Of a stretch of 64,000 nucleotides of DNA, positions 5,739 through 19,590 are shown piece by piece. The stretch's first letter is position 1. Every line of letters begins with the position of its first letter. This stretch comes from Roseimicrobium sp. ORNL1 (lineage in GTDB: Bacteria > Verrucomicrobiota > Verrucomicrobiia > Verrucomicrobiales > Verrucomicrobiaceae): positions 1,612,001-1,676,000 of the forward strand of contig NZ_CP049143.1 of assembly GCF_011044495.1 (NCBI RefSeq). The letters are read 5' to 3'. Under the pieces are notes generated by a model. The model did not search any database. It was not told where the DNA came from and saw only the letters and a list, made by a program, of their open reading frames with translations. A program made the position numbers and the translations under genes.

Positions 5739-7895
5739 ATGTCTGCCAACCTCAATTCCCCCAACCGCAGTTTCCCGCTGGAGCGTACGCGCAACATCGG
5801 CATCTGCGCGCACATTGATGCGGGAAAGACCACGCTGACTGAGCGTATTCTTTTCTACACGGGCATGATTCACAAGATTGGTGAAGTGCACGACGGCGCA
5901 GCCACCACGGACTGGATGGAACAGGAGCGCGAGCGCGGCATTACCATCACTTCCGCTGCTGTTACCACGAACTGGAAGCAGCTTCCTGAAAACGACATCT
6001 TCAAGCTCTTCACCGGCCAGGACATCCGTGTGAATATTATCGACACCCCCGGTCACGTGGACTTCACGGCCGAGGTGGAGCGCTCCCTGCGCGTGCTCGA
6101 CGGTGCCATCTTCGTGCTTTGCGGCGTGGCCGGCGTGCAGCCCCAGTCCGAGACGGTCTACCGTCAGGCTGAAAAGTACGGTGTGCCCCGCATCGCCTTC
6201 GTGAACAAGATGGACCGCACCGGAGCGAACTTCGCCCGTGTCGTGGAAGACGTCCGCACGAAGCTGGGTGCGAATGCCTGGCCGATTCTTATCCCGATTG
6301 GTGCCGAAGATCAGCTCAAGGGCCAGATCGACGTGGTGAACCAGAAGGCTGTCATCTACTCGGATGACGACAAGTGGGGTTCCACCTACCACACCCGTGA
6401 ACTTGAGGGTGACGAAATCGCCACCGCCAAGAAGGCGTACGACGAGCTCGTCGAAGAGCTCTGCAATGTGGACGACGAAATGGGCATGATGTTCCTTGAG
6501 GAAAAGCCCATCTCGAAAGAAGACGTCAAATCGGCTCTTCGCCGCGCTGTGATCAGCCTGAAGATCATCCCGATGGCGGGTGGCTCGGCTTTCAAGAACA
6601 AGGGTGTGCAGTATCTCGTGGACGCCGTGGTGGATTACCTCCCTGGTCCTCTCGACATTCCTGCCGCCAAGGGTCAGAGCCCCGACGACGCTGCAATCGT
6701 CATCGAAGCTCGCCCGGACGACAATGCCAAGTTTGTCTCCCTCGCGTTCAAGCTTTGGAGCGACAAGTTCGTCGGCAAGCTGGTGTTCTTCCGAGTCTAC
6801 TCCGGCTGCGTCCGCAAGGGCGATGTGGTTTACAATCCCCGCACCCGCAAGACCGAGCGCGTGGGCCGCTTGATTCAGATTCAGGCCAACCAGCACAAGG
6901 ACATCGACTGCTGTTACTCCGGCGATATCGCCGCCATGGTCGGCATCAAGAACGTCACCACGGGTGACACGCTCGCAGAAGATGATTACGACATCCTGCT
7001 TGAGCCCCCGTCCTTCCCCGAGCCTGTTATCTCCATGGCCGTGGAACCCAAGGCCAAGGGCGATCAGGAAAAGATGGCTCTCGCACTTCAGCGCCTCTCC
7101 GACGAAGATCCGACTTTCGTGGTCCGCACGGACGAAGAAACCGGCCAGACCATCATCGCAGGCATGGGCGAGCTTCACCTGGAAATCCTTCGCGACCGTA
7201 TGCTTCGCGAGTTCAAGGTGGACACCAACGCCGGCAAACCTCAGATCGCCTATCGCGAAACCCTTACCCTGGCAGCCGACGGCGAAGGAAAGCTGGTCAA
7301 GCAGTCCGGTGGTCGCGGTCAGTACGGCCACGTGATTCTCAAGGTGTACCCGAGCGAACGTGGCAAGGGTGTGACGGTCGAAAACAAGGTTGTCGGCGGC
7401 ACGATTCCCAAGGAATACATCAACGCTTGTAAATCCGGCGTTCTTGAAGCGGTGACCAACGGCATCATCGCCGGTTACGAAGTCATCGACATTCACATCG
7501 ACCTTCTCGATGGATCGAGCCACGACGTGGACTCCAACGAAAACGCGTTCAAGATGGCGGCTATCTTCGCCGTGAAGGACGCGCTCAAGAAGGCGAAGTG
7601 CATCATGCTTGAGCCCATCATGGCAGTGGAAGCCACCACTCCTGAAGAGTATCAAGGCGACATCATGGGTGACCTTAACCGTCGCCGCGGCAAGATCACC
7701 TCGATCGACAGCCGCAACAACATGAGCATCGTGAAGGCCGAAGTGCCGCTCTCCGAAATGTTCGGATACAGCACCACCATCCGCACCCTGTCCAGCGGAC
7801 GCGCCTCCTACTCCATGCAGCCCTCGCATTTCGAACAGGTGCCCCAGCAGATCGTGGATCAGATCGTGGAGCAGCGCGGCGGCAAGAAGTCCTAA
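5739..7895 (+). CDS. fusA: Elongation factor G
   Basis: This 718-residue translocase carries the GTPase motifs AHIDAGKTT (residues about 24-32), RGITI, DTPGH and NKMD, then the EF-G domain II, III (GMGELHLEI), IV and V blocks. It catalyses GTP-driven translocation on the ribosome. It sits in the canonical rpsL-rpsG-fusA order. The tuf gene that usually follows is missing, and rpsJ starts 35 bases later. Confidence 0.98.
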
Positions 7896-7930
7896 CCTGA
7901 GAATCATTTCACCCGAGCGGGATACACACC

Positions 7931-8239
7931 ATGCAAAGTCAACGCATCAGAATTCGCCTGCGGGCTTACGATTACCGTGTGCTGGACAAGTCCACTGCGG
8001 AAATCGTGGAGACAGCCAAGCGCACCGGCGCCAAAGTGGCGGGCCCCATTCCTCTGCCCACCCGCATTGAGAAGTTCAATGTGAACCGCTCGCCCCACGT
8101 GGACAAGAAGTCCTCCGAGCATTTCGAAATCCGCACGCACAAGCGCTTGCTTGACATCGTGGATCCCACGGCCCGCACCGTGGATGAGCTGAAGAAACTG
8201 AATCTGCCGTCCGGCGTGGACATCACCATCCGCATCTAA
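7931..8239 (+). CDS. rpsJ: 30S ribosomal protein S10
   Basis: This 102-residue protein has the S10 core [14 protein letters not shown], the [19 protein letters not shown] loop and the final [11 protein letters not shown] strand. It is a component of the 30S head and, in other bacteria, the NusB partner in antitermination. It normally opens the S10 operon. Here it directly follows fusA, so str and S10 are fused into one unit. Confidence 0.97.
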
Positions 8240-8264
8240 GCGGGCACCCAGGAAGACGACTCCC

Positions 8265-8906
8265 ATGAAAATTGGTTTGATTGGCAAAAAGCTGGGCATG
8301 ACCCAGGTGTACACGGACAAGGGCGAAGCGCTTCCGGTAACCGTCATTCAGGTGGCGGGCAACCAGGTGGTGCAGGTCAAGACCGTGGAGAAGGATGGCT
8401 ACAGCGCTGTTCAGCTTGGCTTCGACGACAAGAAGGAGAAGAGCGTGAACAAGCCTGAGGGCGGTCATTTCAAGAAGGCTGGTGCCTCTGCGAAGTACGT
8501 GCTCAAGGAATACCGCATCGATGGTGAGGCTCCTGCAGCCGGCACCGTGTTCGGTCCTGAAGTGTTCGAAGTTGGCGACGTCGTGGACGTCATCGGCACC
8601 ACCAAGGGCAAGGGCTTCCAGGGCGTTGTGAAGCGCTATGGCTTCCGCGGCCAGCCCATGACCCACGGTTCCATGATGCACCGTCGTACTGGTTCCATCG
8701 GTTGCCGTCTTACCCCCGGTCGCGTTTGGAAGAACCAGAAGATGCCCGGACACACCGGCACCACCAATCGTACCACGCAGAATCTGCAGATCGTGCAGAG
8801 CCGCACTGAAGAGGGCGTCATCCTTGTGAGGGGCTGCGTTCCTGGCCACAACAATTCCTACGTCTTCGTGCGTCCCGCCATCAAGAAGGTGGCCGCCAAG
8901 AACTAA
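8265..8906 (+). CDS. rplC: 50S ribosomal protein L3
   Basis: This 213-residue L3 starts MKIGLIGKKLGMTQVY. It has the central KGKGFQGVVKRYGFRGQP loop and the HRRTGSIG segment that reaches the peptidyl transferase centre. Length and order (after rpsJ, before rplD) are standard. The spacing to rpsJ is 25 bases. Confidence 0.97.
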   Translation: MKIGLIGKKLGMTQVYTDKGEALPVTVIQVAGNQVVQVKTVEKDGYSAVQLGFDDKKEKSVNKPEGGHFKKAGASAKYVLKEYRIDGEAPAAGTVFGPEVFEVGDVVDVIGTTKGKGFQGVVKRYGFRGQPMTHGSMMHRRTGSIGCRLTPGRVWKNQKMPGHTGTTNRTTQNLQIVQSRTEEGVILVRGCVPGHNNSYVFVRPAIKKVAAKN

Positions 8907-8928
8907 CTTTTGAGTCGAGCCCATCGTC

Positions 8929-9540
8929 ATGTCCGCAACTACTCTTACACTCGACGCCGCCAAGAAGGCCAGCATCAACCTGGTCGAGGATCCTGCCAAG
9001 GGCCTCCAGGCTCTGCACGAAACCGTCGTGGCCTATCGCGCCAACCGCCGCCAGGGCACTGCCAGCACCAAGACCCGCAATGAAGTCGCGGGCTCCGGCA
9101 AGAAGCTCTGGAATCAGAAGGGCACCGGCCGCGCTCGTATGGGCAGCGTCCGCTCTCCCATCTGGCGTGGGGGTGGTGTCGTCTGGGGCCCCCGTCCTCG
9201 CGACTATTCCAAGAAGATCCCGCAGAAGATCAAGTCGCTGGCTCTCCGCCGCGCCCTGACCTCCCGCATTGAAGACGGCGACGTCCTCACCACGGCGAAC
9301 TTCTCCATCCAGGACGGCAAGACCAAGAGCTTCATCAAGACGCTCAGCGGTCTGACCGACGCCAAGAAGGTGCTCGTGCTCGCCAGCGCCTTCGATGAAA
9401 CCACCTTCCTCAGCGGTCGCAATGTTGCCAACGTGCAGCTTCTGAACGCCGCCGACGTGAATGCTGAACACCTCCTCAACTTCGCGAAAATCGTCGTGGT
9501 GGGAGACGCACTTGAAATCCTTGCCAAGAGGACTGCCTAA
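8929..9540 (+). CDS. rplD: 50S ribosomal protein L4
   Basis: This 203-residue L4 contains the exit-tunnel loop KLWNQKGTGRARMGSVRSP and the GPRPRDYSKKIPQKIKSLA helix region. L4 lines the nascent-peptide tunnel; in some bacteria it also represses its own operon. Its TAA at 9538-9540 directly abuts the ATG of rplW, so the two are probably translationally coupled. Confidence 0.97.
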   Translation: MSATTLTLDAAKKASINLVEDPAKGLQALHETVVAYRANRRQGTASTKTRNEVAGSGKKLWNQKGTGRARMGSVRSPIWRGGGVVWGPRPRDYSKKIPQKIKSLALRRALTSRIEDGDVLTTANFSIQDGKTKSFIKTLSGLTDAKKVLVLASAFDETTFLSGRNVANVQLLNAADVNAEHLLNFAKIVVVGDALEILAKRTA

Positions 9541-9822
9541 ATGAAAGACCTTTCCTACGCCATCAAAACGATCCGCCTCAGTGAGAAGGCCACCCTTCTT
9601 GGTGAGAAGCTGAACGAGTACGTCTTCAAGGTCGATCCGCGCGCCAACAAGATCGAGATCAAGCAGGCCGTGGAGAAGCTCTTTGGCAAGAAGGTCGTCG
9701 ACGTTCGCACCATGAACTACTCCGGTAAGGAACGCCGTCGCGGCGCCCGTGCCGGTCAGACCTCCGACTGGAAGAAAGCTGTTGTCCGCCTCAAAGAAGG
9801 CGAAACCATCGAGCTCGCCTAG
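9541..9822 (+). CDS. rplW: 50S ribosomal protein L23
   Basis: This 93-residue L23 begins on the base after the rplD stop. The NKIEIKQAVEKLFGKKVVDV core and the basic RRRGARAGQTSDWKKAVV segment are typical. L23 sits at the tunnel exit and docks trigger factor and SRP. Confidence 0.96.
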   Translation: MKDLSYAIKTIRLSEKATLLGEKLNEYVFKVDPRANKIEIKQAVEKLFGKKVVDVRTMNYSGKERRRGARAGQTSDWKKAVVRLKEGETIELA

Positions 9823-9871
9823 TCGACTCCCGCCTCGTTCGTCCCTGTAGAAATTTTCCCCTTATCGCGTC

Positions 9872-10708
9872 ATGGCTCTTAAGACATTCAAGCCCAACAC
9901 GCCCTCGAACCGGTTCAAGCAGCTCCCTGCCTTCGAAGAAATTACGAAGCACACACCGGAGCGCAGCCTGACTGAGGCCCTGCGCAAGTCGGGTGGCCGC
10001 AACAACACGGGTCGCATCACCTGCCGTCACATCGGCGGTGGTCACAAGCGCCGCTATCGTCTCATCGACTTCAAGCGCTCCCGCCGTGATGAAGCTGCCA
10101 ACGTGGTCGGCATCGAGTACGATCCGAACCGCTCCGCCCGTATCGCGCTCATCCAGTTCCCGGATGGCCAGAAGAGCTACATCCTTGCTCCCGCCAATCT
10201 TGAAGTGGGTGCCAAGGTGACCGCCGGAGAGAAGGCCCAGCCTGAACTCGGCAACGCTCTGCCCCTGCGCAACATCCCGCTCGGTACGCAGATCCACAAC
10301 ATCGAGATCAACCCTGCCCAGGGTGGCAAGCTCGTCCGCGCCGCCGGCCAGGCCGCCATTCTCTCCAACCGCGAAGGTCGCTACGCGCTCATCCGCCTGC
10401 CCTCCGGTGAAATCCGCAAGATTCTCGCCGAGTGCTACGCCACGATTGGCCAGGTCGGCAACACCGACCACATGAACGTCATCAGCGGCAAGGCTGGACG
10501 TACCCGCTGGCTGGGCGTTCGCCCGACCGTGCGCGGCATGTGCATGAACCCCATCGACCACCCGAACGGTGGTGGTGAAGGCCGCTCCAAGTCCGGTGGT
10601 GGTCGCCAGCACCTCCTCAGCCCCTGGGGCCACGCCAAGGGCCAGAAGACCCGCAGCAAGAAGAAGCACTCGAACCGCCTCATCGTGCAGCGTCGCAACG
10701 CCAAGTAA
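9872..10708 (+). CDS. rplB: 50S ribosomal protein L2
   Basis: This 278-residue L2 has the [21 protein letters not shown] start region and the conserved [14 protein letters not shown] loop near the peptidyl transferase centre. At residue 232 the loop reads DHPN, where E. coli and most bacteria have DHPH (His229). The codon is AAC at 10565-10567. L2 joins the subunits and stabilises tRNA binding. The C-terminus [17 protein letters not shown] is canonical. Confidence 0.97.
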
Positions 10709-10744
10709 TCATTTTCGAACCTCTGACCCAGCTAGTTACCTGCC

Positions 10745-11023
10745 ATGGGACGCTCACTTAAAAAAGGACCTTTCATCAACCAGAAGCTGCTCTGGAAGAT
10801 TGACACTCAGAATGAAGCCGGCACCAAGCGGCCCATCAAGACCTGGGCTCGTGCTTCGATCATCCCGCCCGACTTCGTTGGCCACACCTTCCTGGTGCAC
10901 AACGGCAAGGACTTCATCAGCGTGTATGTGACCGAAAACATGGTCGGACATCGCCTCGGTGAATTCTCCCCGACCCGCACCTTCAAGGGCCACGGCGCTC
11001 ACACCGCCAAGGTCACCAAGTAA
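10745..11023 (+). CDS. rpsS: 30S ribosomal protein S19
   Basis: This 92-residue S19 starts [11 protein letters not shown] and contains the [17 protein letters not shown] and [19 protein letters not shown] blocks. It pairs with S13 in the 30S head. The next gene is not rplV as usual but a secreted coiled-coil protein. Confidence 0.97.
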
Positions 11024-11073
11024 GCAAAGCAGTTCGTTCGTCTTCGAGTCTCCTTATTTCTTTCTTCACCGCC

Positions 11074-11865
11074 ATGTCACTGTTCCGCAACATCGCCCGC
11101 CAAGGCACTGCCGCGCTTCTCGCGCTGGTGGCGCTCGGTGCTGGCCATGTGCAGGGGCAGCAGAACCTGGCGGTGGAACTGAAGGAGGCTCAGATGACCC
11201 TCACGGCGGCGCTGACTCGCGTCTCCGACCTCGACGCCCGCCTGACGAAGGCTCGCGAACAGGTGAATGCCCTGGCGGAAGCGCTTGCCTCCGCCAACGG
11301 TGAGTCCCAGCAGGGCCGCGAGGCCTATGAACGCATCCGCGTGCAGATGGAAGGTCTCGGCATGGCCGCGCTGGATGCCAGCAGCAGTGAAACCAATCAG
11401 CGCCTTCTCGCCGCGCTGAGCGACCTCCGCATCCTCGAAGGCCAGAACCGCGCCCTCGCAGACGCGCTCTACCAGCTCTCGTTGGCCAGCCTCGAGTATG
11501 CCAAGGCCTCCGGTCCTGTGCAGGGCCAGCCCAAGCTGAAGTTCGACGAAGGTCTCGCCGCTGCGGACAAGGCCCTGGCCAAGGTGCAGGCCGCCAAACA
11601 ACCCGTCGGAGATCTCGATCTCCAAAACGCCCGTGTCGTAAGCCTGAAGGAAGACACCGGTATTCTCATTCTCAATGTCGGATCGCGCCACGGGGTGCAT
11701 CCCGGCATGCCCTTTTCCATCTACCGTCAGGATAAGCCTGTGGCCCGCGTCCTTGTAGTCGATGTCCGCAATGGCATCAGCGGTGCCGTGTTGCAGGAAC
11801 TCGTCAGCAAGGATGAACCCGTCAAAGTAGGGGACACCGGTCGCGTCGAGCCCGTGAAGAGTTAA
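11074..11865 (+). CDS. Secreted coiled-coil protein within the S10 operon
   Basis: This 263-residue protein is inserted between rpsS and rplV on the same strand, with gaps of 50 and 18 bases and no terminator. It has a signal peptide (MSLFRNIARQGTAALLALVA, cleavage near VQGQQ) and a helical coiled-coil region at about residues 30-150. Its C-terminal beta-rich domain (LNVGSRHGVHPGMPFSIYRQ, then VARVLVVDVRNGISGA) resembles the small barrel modules of MreC or FlgT C-terminal domains. The family is not identified. An envelope role coupled to ribosome production is inferred from position alone. Confidence 0.75.
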   Translation: MSLFRNIARQGTAALLALVALGAGHVQGQQNLAVELKEAQMTLTAALTRVSDLDARLTKAREQVNALAEALASANGESQQGREAYERIRVQMEGLGMAALDASSSETNQRLLAALSDLRILEGQNRALADALYQLSLASLEYAKASGPVQGQPKLKFDEGLAAADKALAKVQAAKQPVGDLDLQNARVVSLKEDTGILILNVGSRHGVHPGMPFSIYRQDKPVARVLVVDVRNGISGAVLQELVSKDEPVKVGDTGRVEPVKS

Positions 11866-11883
11866 CTGGAAGCAAGTCAAGCC

Positions 11884-12282
11884 ATGGAAGTCAAATCCGT
11901 CACGAAATTCGCAAGAATCTCCGATCTCAAGGCCCGGGAAGTCGCCCGCGCCGTGCAGGGGATGCCCGTCTCGCAGGCCCTCAGCGTGCTCAACTTCACT
12001 CCGAAGAAGGCCGCCCTCTTGATCGGCAAGACCCTCCGCTCCGCCATCGCCAACGCGGAGAACAACCACGAGCTCGATGCGGATGATCTCTACATCAAGA
12101 GCGCCACGGCCACCAAGGGCCCGGTTCTCAAGCGCATCATGCCCCGCGCCCGTGGTTCCGCCGCCGGCATCAAGAAGCGCATGAGCCACCTCACCATCGT
12201 CCTGGCACAGAAGCCGGAAGAAAAAGAAGAAGCGAAACCCAAGCGCGCCGCCAAGACGAAGAAGGCCGCTGAGCAAGCCTAA
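11884..12282 (+). CDS. rplV: 50S ribosomal protein L22
   Basis: This 132-residue L22 keeps the AREVARAVQGMPVSQAL helix and the tunnel beta-hairpin (LKRIMPRARGSAAGIKKRMSH). A Lys/Glu/Ala-rich tail of about 20 residues (KEEAKPKRAAKTKKAAEQA) extends beyond the E. coli length of 110. The start gives the usual S10-operon partner of rpsC, 33 bases downstream. Confidence 0.96.
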   Translation: MEVKSVTKFARISDLKAREVARAVQGMPVSQALSVLNFTPKKAALLIGKTLRSAIANAENNHELDADDLYIKSATATKGPVLKRIMPRARGSAAGIKKRMSHLTIVLAQKPEEKEEAKPKRAAKTKKAAEQA

Positions 12283-12315
12283 TCAGCCGCCAGACACCCA
12301 ACCCTTTCAAATACT

Positions 12316-13134
12316 ATGGGCCAAAAAGTCAATCCAATCGGATTCCGTCTCGCCGTCAATAAAGACTGGCGCTCGAAGTGGTACGCCCCGGAGAAGGACT
12401 ATGCGGAGTTCCTGCATGCTGACCTTGCCATTCGCGACTACCTCAAGAAGAAGCTTTCCTCGGCGGCACTCGCCAAGATCGTCATCGAGCGCGCCTGGAA
12501 CCTGGTGCGCGTCACCCTGCACACCGCGCGTCCCGGTCTTGTGATCGGTCGCAAGGGCCAGGAAATCGAGGTGATGAGCAACGAGATCTCCAAGATGTGC
12601 GGCGGCAAGTCCGTGAAGATTGACATCCTTGAGATCAAGCAGCCTGAGATCGACGCCCAGCTTGTGGCTGAGAGCGTGGCGACCCAGCTTGAGCGCCGTA
12701 TTTCTTTCCGTCGTGCGATGAAGCGCGCCGTGCAGACCGCGATGGACATGGGTGCCGATGGCATTCGTATCCGCTGCGCCGGTCGTCTCGGTGGTGCGGA
12801 CATCGCCCGCGCCGAGCAGTATCGCCAGGGCAAGGTGCCTCTTCAGACCCTTCGTATCAACATCGACTACGGCTTCACCGAAGCCCGTACCGTGTATGGC
12901 ATCATCGGCGTGAAGTGCTGGCTCAACCGCAAGCCTGAAGTCGAAGGAGCTCCCGCTCCCGAGCGCCGCCAGGAGCGTCGCCCACGTCGTGAAGGCGACC
13001 GCGGCCCGCGTGGCGGTGGTGGTGGCGGCGGATATCGCGGTGGAGACCGTGGTGACCGCGGCGGAGATCGTGGTGGTGACCGTCAGGCCTCCGCGCCTGC
13101 CCCGGCTCCCGCCGAAGCGCCCGCTGCGCAGTAA
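12316..13134 (+). CDS. rpsC: 30S ribosomal protein S3 with RGG-like tail
   Basis: This 272-residue S3 has the MGQKVNPIGFRL start, a KH domain with the GRKGQEIEV loop, and the C-terminal domain with RCAGRLGGADIAR. From about residue 206 it carries an extra Arg/Gly/Asp-rich tail (GGYRGGDRGDRGGDRGG) ending in a Pro/Ala stretch. E. coli S3 is 233 residues. The tail could add RNA-binding capacity at the mRNA entry site; that is inference. Confidence 0.96.
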   Translation: MGQKVNPIGFRLAVNKDWRSKWYAPEKDYAEFLHADLAIRDYLKKKLSSAALAKIVIERAWNLVRVTLHTARPGLVIGRKGQEIEVMSNEISKMCGGKSVKIDILEIKQPEIDAQLVAESVATQLERRISFRRAMKRAVQTAMDMGADGIRIRCAGRLGGADIARAEQYRQGKVPLQTLRINIDYGFTEARTVYGIIGVKCWLNRKPEVEGAPAPERRQERRPRREGDRGPRGGGGGGGYRGGDRGDRGGDRGGDRQASAPAPAPAEAPAAQ

Positions 13135-18032: not shown

Positions 18033-18057
18033 GCGGCTCAGTTTGGTACTGAGTCGC
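18033..18057 (+). promoter_or_regulatory. Hairpin before secY
   Basis: GCGGCTCAG (18033-18041) and CTGAGTCGC (18049-18057) form a 9-bp stem with one G-T pair and a 7-base loop, 28 bases before the secY ATG. No T run follows, so it is more likely a processing or attenuation structure than a terminator. Confidence 0.35.
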
Positions 18058-18084
18058 TTGCCATTTCAAGACACGACTCCCTCC

Positions 18085-19590
18085 ATGATTTCCGCCTTTG
18101 TAAACATCTTCAAGATACCGGATCTGCGCCAGAGGATCCTGTTCACCCTGGCCATGATTGTCATCGTGCGCATCGGGTACGCCATCACTCTTCCCGGCGT
18201 GAACCCGCATGTGCTCCAGGCGTGGGTGGATCTTACGGCCAAGGAAGCTACCAACAACCCCTTCGCCGCGGCAGCAGCCCTGGTGAACGTGTTCAGCGGT
18301 GGTGGTCTGCAGCGTTGCGCGATTTTCGCCCTGGGGATCATGCCCTACATCAGCGCGAGCATCATGATGCAGCTTCTCACGGCCGTGGTGCCGAGCATGA
18401 GCAAGCTGTCCCGTGAAGACGGCGGACGGCAGAAAATCAATCAGTGGACGCGCTATGCGACCGTGGGCCTCTGCCTTCTGCAGGGCTACATGCTGGCGGT
18501 GTCCTTGAAGAATCCGGGCCAGAACATCTTCCTCAGCGGCCTGGACAAGGCCATGCAGGCGGTTGGCAGCCCGCTGGTGCCTGATCACAACTGGATGTTT
18601 GTGGTCACCGCGGTGCTCACCATGACGGCGGGCAGCATGTTCATCATGTGGATGGGTGAGCAGATCACCGAGCGCGGCATCGGCAACGGTGTCTCCCTCC
18701 TTATTTGTATCAACATCGTGTCCGACCTTCCCGGCGCCCTCGTGCGTGTGTGGAAGACTTTCATCGCGAATGAGCAGGCGACCACCATGGACGCCATGAA
18801 GCTCCTGGCCATGCTCGTGCTGCTGGTGGCGGTCATCGCCGGCATCATCGCCCTGACTCAGGCACAGCGCCGCATTGCCATTCAGTACGCCAAGCGCGTG
18901 GTGGGCCGCAAGGTCTACGGCGGGCAGACGCAGTACATGCCGCTGAAGGTGAACTACGCGGGCGTCATGCCCATCATCTTCGCCCAGGCCATCCTTCTCT
19001 TCCCGGCTCAGATCATCGGCTTCATGTTCCCCCACCAGGCGGCCGTGCAGCAGTGGGCCGAGTGGCTCGCCTACGGCTGGCCGAACCTCATCATCTCCAC
19101 CACGCTGATCTTCTTCTTCAGCTACTTCTGGGTGGCGACGATGTTCCAGCCGAACCAGATCGCGGAAGACCTTAAGAAGAGCGGTGGTTACATCCCCGGA
19201 CAGCGCCCTGGCAAGCCCACGGCAGACTTCCTGGACTTCACCATGAGCCGCCTGACCTTCGCGGGTGCCCTCTTCCTGACCCTCATCTACCTGCTTCCGC
19301 TCCTCGTGCAGCGCGGCATGAAGATTGACCAGACCGTGGCCCAGTTCTTCGGTGGTACCAGCATCCTGATTCTCGTGGGTGTGGTGCTCGACGTGATGCG
19401 CCAGGTGGAAACTCATCTTCTGCAGCGCCACTACGACGGCTTCCTGCGCAAGGGCAAGATTCGCGGTCGCTTCGAGCGTCAGACGGGTGGTGGCATTGCT
19501 GCCAATCCCAAGCTGGTGGTCATGCTCTGGACCGTTATTGCCATCATCGCGCTGGTCGGCGTGTCGTTTGCGGTGTTCCACGGCAAGTAA
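18085..19590 (+). CDS. secY: Protein translocase subunit SecY
   Basis: This 501-residue membrane protein is the channel of the Sec translocon. I chose the ATG at 18085 because MISAFVNIFKIPDLRQRILF is a standard SecY start; the in-frame TTG at 18043 adds residues unlike SecY and lies within the hairpin. Conserved features include FSGGGLQRCAIFALGIMPYI, the ITERGIGNGVSL segment and FFGGTSILILVGVVLD, with about ten hydrophobic segments. The charged C-terminal end is followed by one last hydrophobic stretch (VVMLWTVIAIIALVGVSFAV), which is longer than usual. Confidence 0.96.
   Translation: MISAFVNIFKIPDLRQRILFTLAMIVIVRIGYAITLPGVNPHVLQAWVDLTAKEATNNPFAAAAALVNVFSGGGLQRCAIFALGIMPYISASIMMQLLTAVVPSMSKLSREDGGRQKINQWTRYATVGLCLLQGYMLAVSLKNPGQNIFLSGLDKAMQAVGSPLVPDHNWMFVVTAVLTMTAGSMFIMWMGEQITERGIGNGVSLLICINIVSDLPGALVRVWKTFIANEQATTMDAMKLLAMLVLLVAVIAGIIALTQAQRRIAIQYAKRVVGRKVYGGQTQYMPLKVNYAGVMPIIFAQAILLFPAQIIGFMFPHQAAVQQWAEWLAYGWPNLIISTTLIFFFSYFWVATMFQPNQIAEDLKKSGGYIPGQRPGKPTADFLDFTMSRLTFAGALFLTLIYLLPLLVQRGMKIDQTVAQFFGGTSILILVGVVLDVMRQVETHLLQRHYDGFLRKGKIRGRFERQTGGGIAANPKLVVMLWTVIAIIALVGVSFAVFHGK

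Follow-up and report, generated by a model that had tools for sequence, protein, structure and literature searches.

Ribosomal operons are known to contain non-ribosomal genes, secY and rpoA among others. It is unusual, however, for ribosomal genes to be accompanied by a gene for an envelope-type, predicted exported protein that adjoins rplV in much of a phylum. We found no such case in the open-access literature, nor a paper on the gene or on its genomic position. The nearest described proteins by fold and profile are the flagellar H-ring protein FlgT, which is defined by its N-terminal and middle domains, MreC, and the type IV pilus secretin-associated protein TsaP.

Passages of a TraDIS study on the essential genome of Verrucomicrobium spinosum, a tractable species amenable to targeted mutagenesis, count mreC as essential (PMC12283558). 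A lineage-restricted protein is also described from the same superphylum: passages of PMC3444138 present the PVC signature protein CT421.2 as a hypothetical protein of about 53 to over 80 aa, a size unlike that of the protein analyzed here. Neither the passages of PMC3444138 nor those of PMC4960237, PMC2474590 and PMC5945754 mention the gene. In A. muciniphila the gene numbers given in passages of PMC7671984 (rpsJ gene344, rplP gene335) allow for a single additional gene in the interval from rpsJ to rplP, which would be AMUC_RS01705. Neither this identifier nor the old locus tags that were tried led to a paper on the gene in the open-access literature.

Position of the gene in the S10 operon

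The window, i.e. the whole stretch of 64,000 nucleotides that was analyzed, stems from Roseimicrobium sp. ORNL1, whose genome comprises 7.96 Mb on one contig. At 11074..11865 on the + strand it contains an open reading frame of 263 aa (ATG at 11074, stop codon included) for a protein with a predicted export signal, coiled coil and FlgT_C-like barrel. The upstream neighbor is rpsS, encoding ribosomal protein S19 (10745..11023, + strand; Pfam Ribosomal_S19, 121.6 bits), and the downstream neighbor is rplV, encoding ribosomal protein L22 (11884..12282, + strand; Pfam Ribosomal_L22, 126.3 bits). The gaps on the + strand amount to 50 bp (11024..11073) and 18 bp (11866..11883), respectively, which bears out the earlier note, where the frame had been placed between rpsS and rplV on the same strand with short gaps. 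The 50-bp gap contains neither a + strand terminator-like nor a promoter-like site. A scan of positions 7700-12400 yielded no sigma-70-like site and no terminator-like site on the + strand; the six terminator-like sites detected there are all located on the - strand and correspond to chance level (shuffle mean 5.6). Since + strand terminator-like and sigma-70-like sites are absent from the scanned region, a shared rpsS–ORF–rplV transcript is likely, and the frame is probably co-transcribed with both neighbors. In the source genome the protein itself gives a single match and the family profile three, two of which are distant paralogs.

In a relative of the same genus the protein is 91% identical. 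Matches were found in 55 of 57 relatives, and the two relatives without a match are assemblies of 75% and 87% completeness. The DNA of the best match was read in all 55 genomes of the order, and every time the gene immediately precedes rplV, in the same orientation. It is preceded by rpsS in 54 genomes; the remaining contig starts too near to the gene to tell. Absence from close relatives, which together with low expression had been named as the mark of a chance insertion, is therefore not what we observe. Both a chance insertion and an annotation artefact are rejected on the basis of the matches in these relatives, the fixed place before rplV and a dN/dS of 0.05-0.14.

Counting paralogs, a profile of 35 members has matches in 144 of the 188 class genomes and in 147 of the 240 phylum genomes. 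Because of these paralogs, the 5' side of rplV was read directly in 232 distinct genomes. The family is found directly upstream of rplV in 163 of them and is absent there in 69, proportions that are not rates for the phylum since the sample was mostly picked; presence at the same place in other Verrucomicrobiota, proposed earlier as a check, is thereby confirmed. By kinship, the family occupies this position in 66/66 genomes of the order, 43/66 of the rest of the class and 54/100 of the rest of the phylum, and 54 of the 86 family groups include one or more genomes that have it there. Class genomes were chosen partly for having or lacking a match and 40 phylum-level genomes for a profile match. 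A further 117 phylum genomes, 45 with a profile match somewhere, were searched for rplV, and the 60 with returned loci were read. In one search 30 of 76 rplV matches were read as DNA, in another 30 of 37. Among the unread matches of the 76-match search, 14 adjoin a family match by coordinates; for the unread rplV matches of G241, G270, G296, G340, G346 and G356 the listed family match lies elsewhere. Left out of the count were repeat loci of counted genomes, four loci on contigs equal in length to contigs already in the set, the secondary-match loci L060-L063, the locus L200 and the paralog loci L154-L169. In place of five rpsS loci, the rplV loci of the respective genomes were used, and L219, although passing the family search at E 5e-4, was counted as lacking the gene. 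The protein, which is predicted to be exported, has long belonged to the S10 operon in this phylum and is tied to rplV, and it is strongly supported that its position is conserved more deeply than had been proposed.

Some members of the phylum have an S10 operon that is interrupted between rpsS and rplV. The two ends of the operon were located in 13 genomes, and in all 13 the protein lies directly before rplV, without rpsS. The split-operon loci are L175, L188, L195, L196 and L198 with L201-L203, L205-L209 and L211-L215. In eighteen further genomes the protein likewise precedes rplV, and the 447-876 bases ahead of the match contain no rpsS; L040 and L230 are too close to a contig end and were not counted among them. 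These cases may stem from one or a few splits. It is rplV with which the family remains linked. In another 16 genomes (ten of f58, two of f63, two of f64, one of f74 and one of f68, the borderline locus L219) rplV is preceded by neither the protein nor rpsS.

The absences were placed on a FastTree phylogeny of L2, S19, L22 and S3 with 166 rows, five loci without rplV in reach being assigned to no group. The states long, short and none require at least 10 changes, as opposed to 34 in shuffles, and the state none alone requires 8, or at least 6 by starred branches. Rows in this state include a clade of 16, three rows of f12 and two of f19, the latter from genomes of 0.9 Mb. Several of these rows are nested among gene-bearing genomes, so repeated loss fits. 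FastTree is prone to joining long branches, support at the deepest branches is weak, and no root was inferred, so that gain and loss were judged by nesting only. The gene is missing from 53 contiguous rpsS-rplV junctions, and the intergenic space is at most 46 bp in 33 of these, so that a clean absence is possible. The 69 genomes without the gene beside rplV imply that it is not needed everywhere. A tblastn search with 12 relatives gave no convincing gene remnant in the wide-gap absentees L131, L132, L133 and L192, the best match (E 0.012) being on the wrong strand. The rpsS–rplV stretch of L133 (552 bp) carries a 127-aa ORF on the + strand without a family match. The gene is absent from L131 and L132, both 0.9-Mb genomes of f19, but retained in L102, a 2.5-Mb genome from that genus, a pattern that suggests a loss on genome reduction.

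Predicted structure and selection

A signal peptide, a coiled coil and an MreC/FlgT-like barrel had been read from the letters by the earlier note, and prediction supports all three through the AlphaFold2 model, the fold comparison and the N-terminal hydrophobic segment. The signal peptide was assigned by eye to residues 1-28 (11074..11157, + strand), with probable cleavage after V26-Q27-G28 and before Q29. The structure prediction that had been asked for gives helices between residues 29 and 174, followed by a six-stranded barrel. In detail, AlphaFold2 places a long helix at residues 29-94 (11158..11355), predicted to form a coiled coil and weakly matching coiled-coil proteins, further helices at residues 104-144 (11383..11505) and 151-174 (11524..11595), and the C-terminal barrel at residues 186-258 (11629..11847), all on the + strand. 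The mean pLDDT of the model is 87.3 and its pTM 0.45; owing to the latter, the placement of the coil relative to the barrel is not fixed.

By a simple criterion, 103 of 110 family members possess an N-terminal hydrophobic segment, compared with 30 of 110 for residues 71 to the end, which served as control. One of the seven misses, L007, is explained by start-codon choice, its near twin L008 having the segment. A lipobox-like motif occurs in five members, and inspection by eye suggests a membrane anchor in some members at phylum level. One clade, with eight genomes from f13, f17 and f47, encodes a short form of 108-124 aa consisting of signal peptide and barrel only, and the model of one such protein has the same six strands as the window protein. 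The barrel is thus the part that is always kept across the family. Within 106 sequences G203 is invariant, and G207, G211, R218, R232, G253 and D254 reach a conservation of 90% or more. The window protein combines the traits of the rplV-linked family: the export segment, the barrel with G-x3-G-x3-G, two conserved arginines and a location directly 5' of rplV on the same strand. Long variants, in which additional sequence separates the N-terminus from the coil, are encoded at L117:2383-4056 (558 aa; additional sequence charged and proline-rich) and L109:2046-3122 (359 aa).

Searches of Pfam, NCBIfam and PDB sequences gave weak matches only. With the model, Foldseek retrieved the flagellar LPHT ring (E 5.4e-5), FlgT (E 5.8e-5) and MreC (E 5e-4). 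In VIA-align comparisons the barrel reached Z scores of 11.7 with the LPHT ring (8z5n) and 11.2 with FlgT (3w1e), with an rmsd of 1.8-2.0 over 73-76 residues. The N-terminal barrels of F1-ATPase, which are hardly related in function, score Z about 10, and the barrel is a common small fold. For the short-form barrel, the LPHT ring has a Z score of 10.4 and the F1-ATPase barrels, with up to 10.5, are tied or leading. The family profile run against the PDB matched MreC (E 2.6e-4), then TsaP (E 0.0012, each matched piece being weak alone) and many coiled coils.

In nine pairs dN/dS amounts to 0.05-0.14, and the gene is under purifying selection. The barrel has a lower dN than the coil in 9/9 pairs and a lower dN/dS in 6/9. 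Measured against 19 ribosomal genes, the window gene has a codon adaptation of 0.628; the ribosomal genes have a mean of 0.681 (s.d. 0.045), and 22 other window genes, selected with a simple score and comprising at least two apparent translation genes, have a mean of 0.574 (s.d. 0.077), with 7 of the 22 reaching 0.628. Outside the operon, two paralogs have values of 0.59 and 0.70, and an MreB-like ORF near mreC has 0.67. Since the window gene lies between both classes and two genes outside the operon score higher, codon usage argues neither for nor against high expression, and synthesis at ribosomal-protein levels, as put forward in the earlier note, is a conjecture.

As regards INDEPENDENCE from MreC, the operon protein and MreC each occur without the other. 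MreC of the source genome is a separate PF04085 match with 109.6 bits at C1:3246773, far from the S10 operon. An ORF near this mreC reads like MreB by eye; the window ORF instead sits between rpsS and rplV. Across the class, 162 of 188 genomes have a PF04085 match. The genomes without MreC that are listed belong to genus g12 in 20/20 cases, with six further misses outside this list, and the operon protein is kept in 17/17 g12 genomes read. The reverse is seen in f12 and part of f19: MreC is present in the listed f12 genomes and in the two f19 genomes of 0.9 Mb, and the operon protein is missing from those that were read, three of f12 and two of f19. The operon protein is therefore not MreC, and we reject both that it is MreC in disguise and that it is an obligate partner of MreC.

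Possible functions of the operon protein

Bacteria must somehow keep envelope growth in step with their ribosome content, a problem for which a single gene here offers a test, and the operon protein is a promising candidate for tying envelope building to ribosome building. Judging from position and predicted fold, the best explanation, to which we give an even chance, is a periplasmic adaptor whose supply scales with ribosomes. The product would be exported through Sec and, in some members, anchored by its N-terminal segment or a lipobox. In the periplasm its helices may oligomerize and give reach, and the C-terminal FlgT_C-like barrel may dock on an envelope partner as an adaptor or scaffold. 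Transcription together with rpsS and rplV would let the protein supply rise and fall with the ribosome supply, and the envelope part thus supplied could keep pace with growth. In this sense we infer a link between ribosome synthesis and envelope growth. A more far-reaching version, possible but clearly tentative, is an envelope-assembly factor that has been hard-wired in the S10 operon since early phylum history, such that one transcript meters envelope and ribosomes. If true, cell-surface growth would have a built-in coupling to translation capacity without a regulator.

The gene might also be an expression hitch-hiker, an abundant structural envelope protein that gains a strong constitutive promoter by position and has no functional tie to ribosomes. 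Strong expression would follow from the same strand, the short gaps and the lack of a + strand terminator-like site, and the weak coiled-coil matches of the family profile include lipoprotein Lpp (E 0.03 and above); codon usage, however, is not exceptional, and the linkage to rplV outlasts the operon split, though a split from one ancestor would give the same picture. On balance this appears rather unlikely. An accessory of a secretin or pilus machine like TsaP, or a cell-shape scaffold like MreC, is an unlikely reading: the profile matches to MreC and TsaP and the Foldseek matches to FlgT and MreC speak for it, but the source genome has a separate MreC, genus g12 keeps the operon protein without MreC, f12 and the 0.9-Mb f19 genomes, as far as read, show the reverse, and LysM is not matched by the window protein. 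A periplasmic Sec export factor, co-expressed with ribosomes and secY to let export capacity track translation, would agree with a predicted exported, helical and adaptor-like protein and with the 515-aa ORF at 18043-19590, which follows rplO, has the place and size of secY and which we take to be secY. We regard it as distinctly improbable, as the linkage is to rplV and no known Sec partner is among the matches listed from profile and fold searches.

Two further explanations are highly improbable. The gene could be a translation monitor, in which stalling or release of ribosomes by the nascent exported chain sets translation of the downstream rplV. An exported frame 18 bp 5' of rplV with conserved adjacency would suit this role, but the conserved part is the folded barrel, the last residues vary without a common arrest-like end (by eye), and rplV occurs without the gene in 69 of 232 genomes. 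An arrest peptide is likewise unlikely in view of the varying C-terminal residues. To the same small degree, the gene could be a frozen neutral passenger, inserted once and kept because excision would be polar. The 8 tree changes needed for its absence are compatible with repeated harmless loss; however, the low dN/dS and residues that are nearly invariant over the phylum already disfavor this explanation, and many lineages keep the gene even though the 33 narrow junctions indicate that a clean absence is possible.

Comparison with known systems

Paralogs elsewhere in the same genomes resemble the operon protein in combining a coiled coil with a barrel, but differ in genome site, tandem arrangement and weaker scores. 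At L154:4141-6084, corresponding to G000:C1:6873140-6875083, they form a tandem pair of 364 and 265 aa, matched by the family profile with E 3e-13 and 3e-9, the first of which opens with a segment resembling a membrane anchor. Similar tandem pairs are present in L155, L156 and L167.

With FlgT (PF16538; 3w1e) and the LPHT ring (8z5n) the window protein has the C-terminal barrel fold in common. In contrast to FlgT, it has a long helical part and a site in a ribosomal operon, and Pfam FlgT_C scores 15.9 bits, below the gathering score of 27. FlgT_C matches 30 of 106 family members at E up to 1 (best E 6e-5). No other FlgT domain was detected in the window protein, FlgT_C and KELK being the only matches at E up to 1. 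MreC is built alike, with a membrane or export segment at the N-terminus followed by a coiled coil and a barrel, and is linked by the distant profile match; however, the true MreC is encoded elsewhere in the source genome, and PF04085 does not match the window protein at E up to 1. Among 106 members PF04085 weakly matches six, with a best E of 0.0018. TsaP (3jc8) is weakly matched by the profile in its C-terminal part. Unlike TsaP, the window protein has ribosomal genes as neighbors and no LysM match at E up to 1, and for the 106 members LysM is not among the 25 listed of 277 families. Consequently, the window protein is not filed under FlgT, MreC or TsaP.
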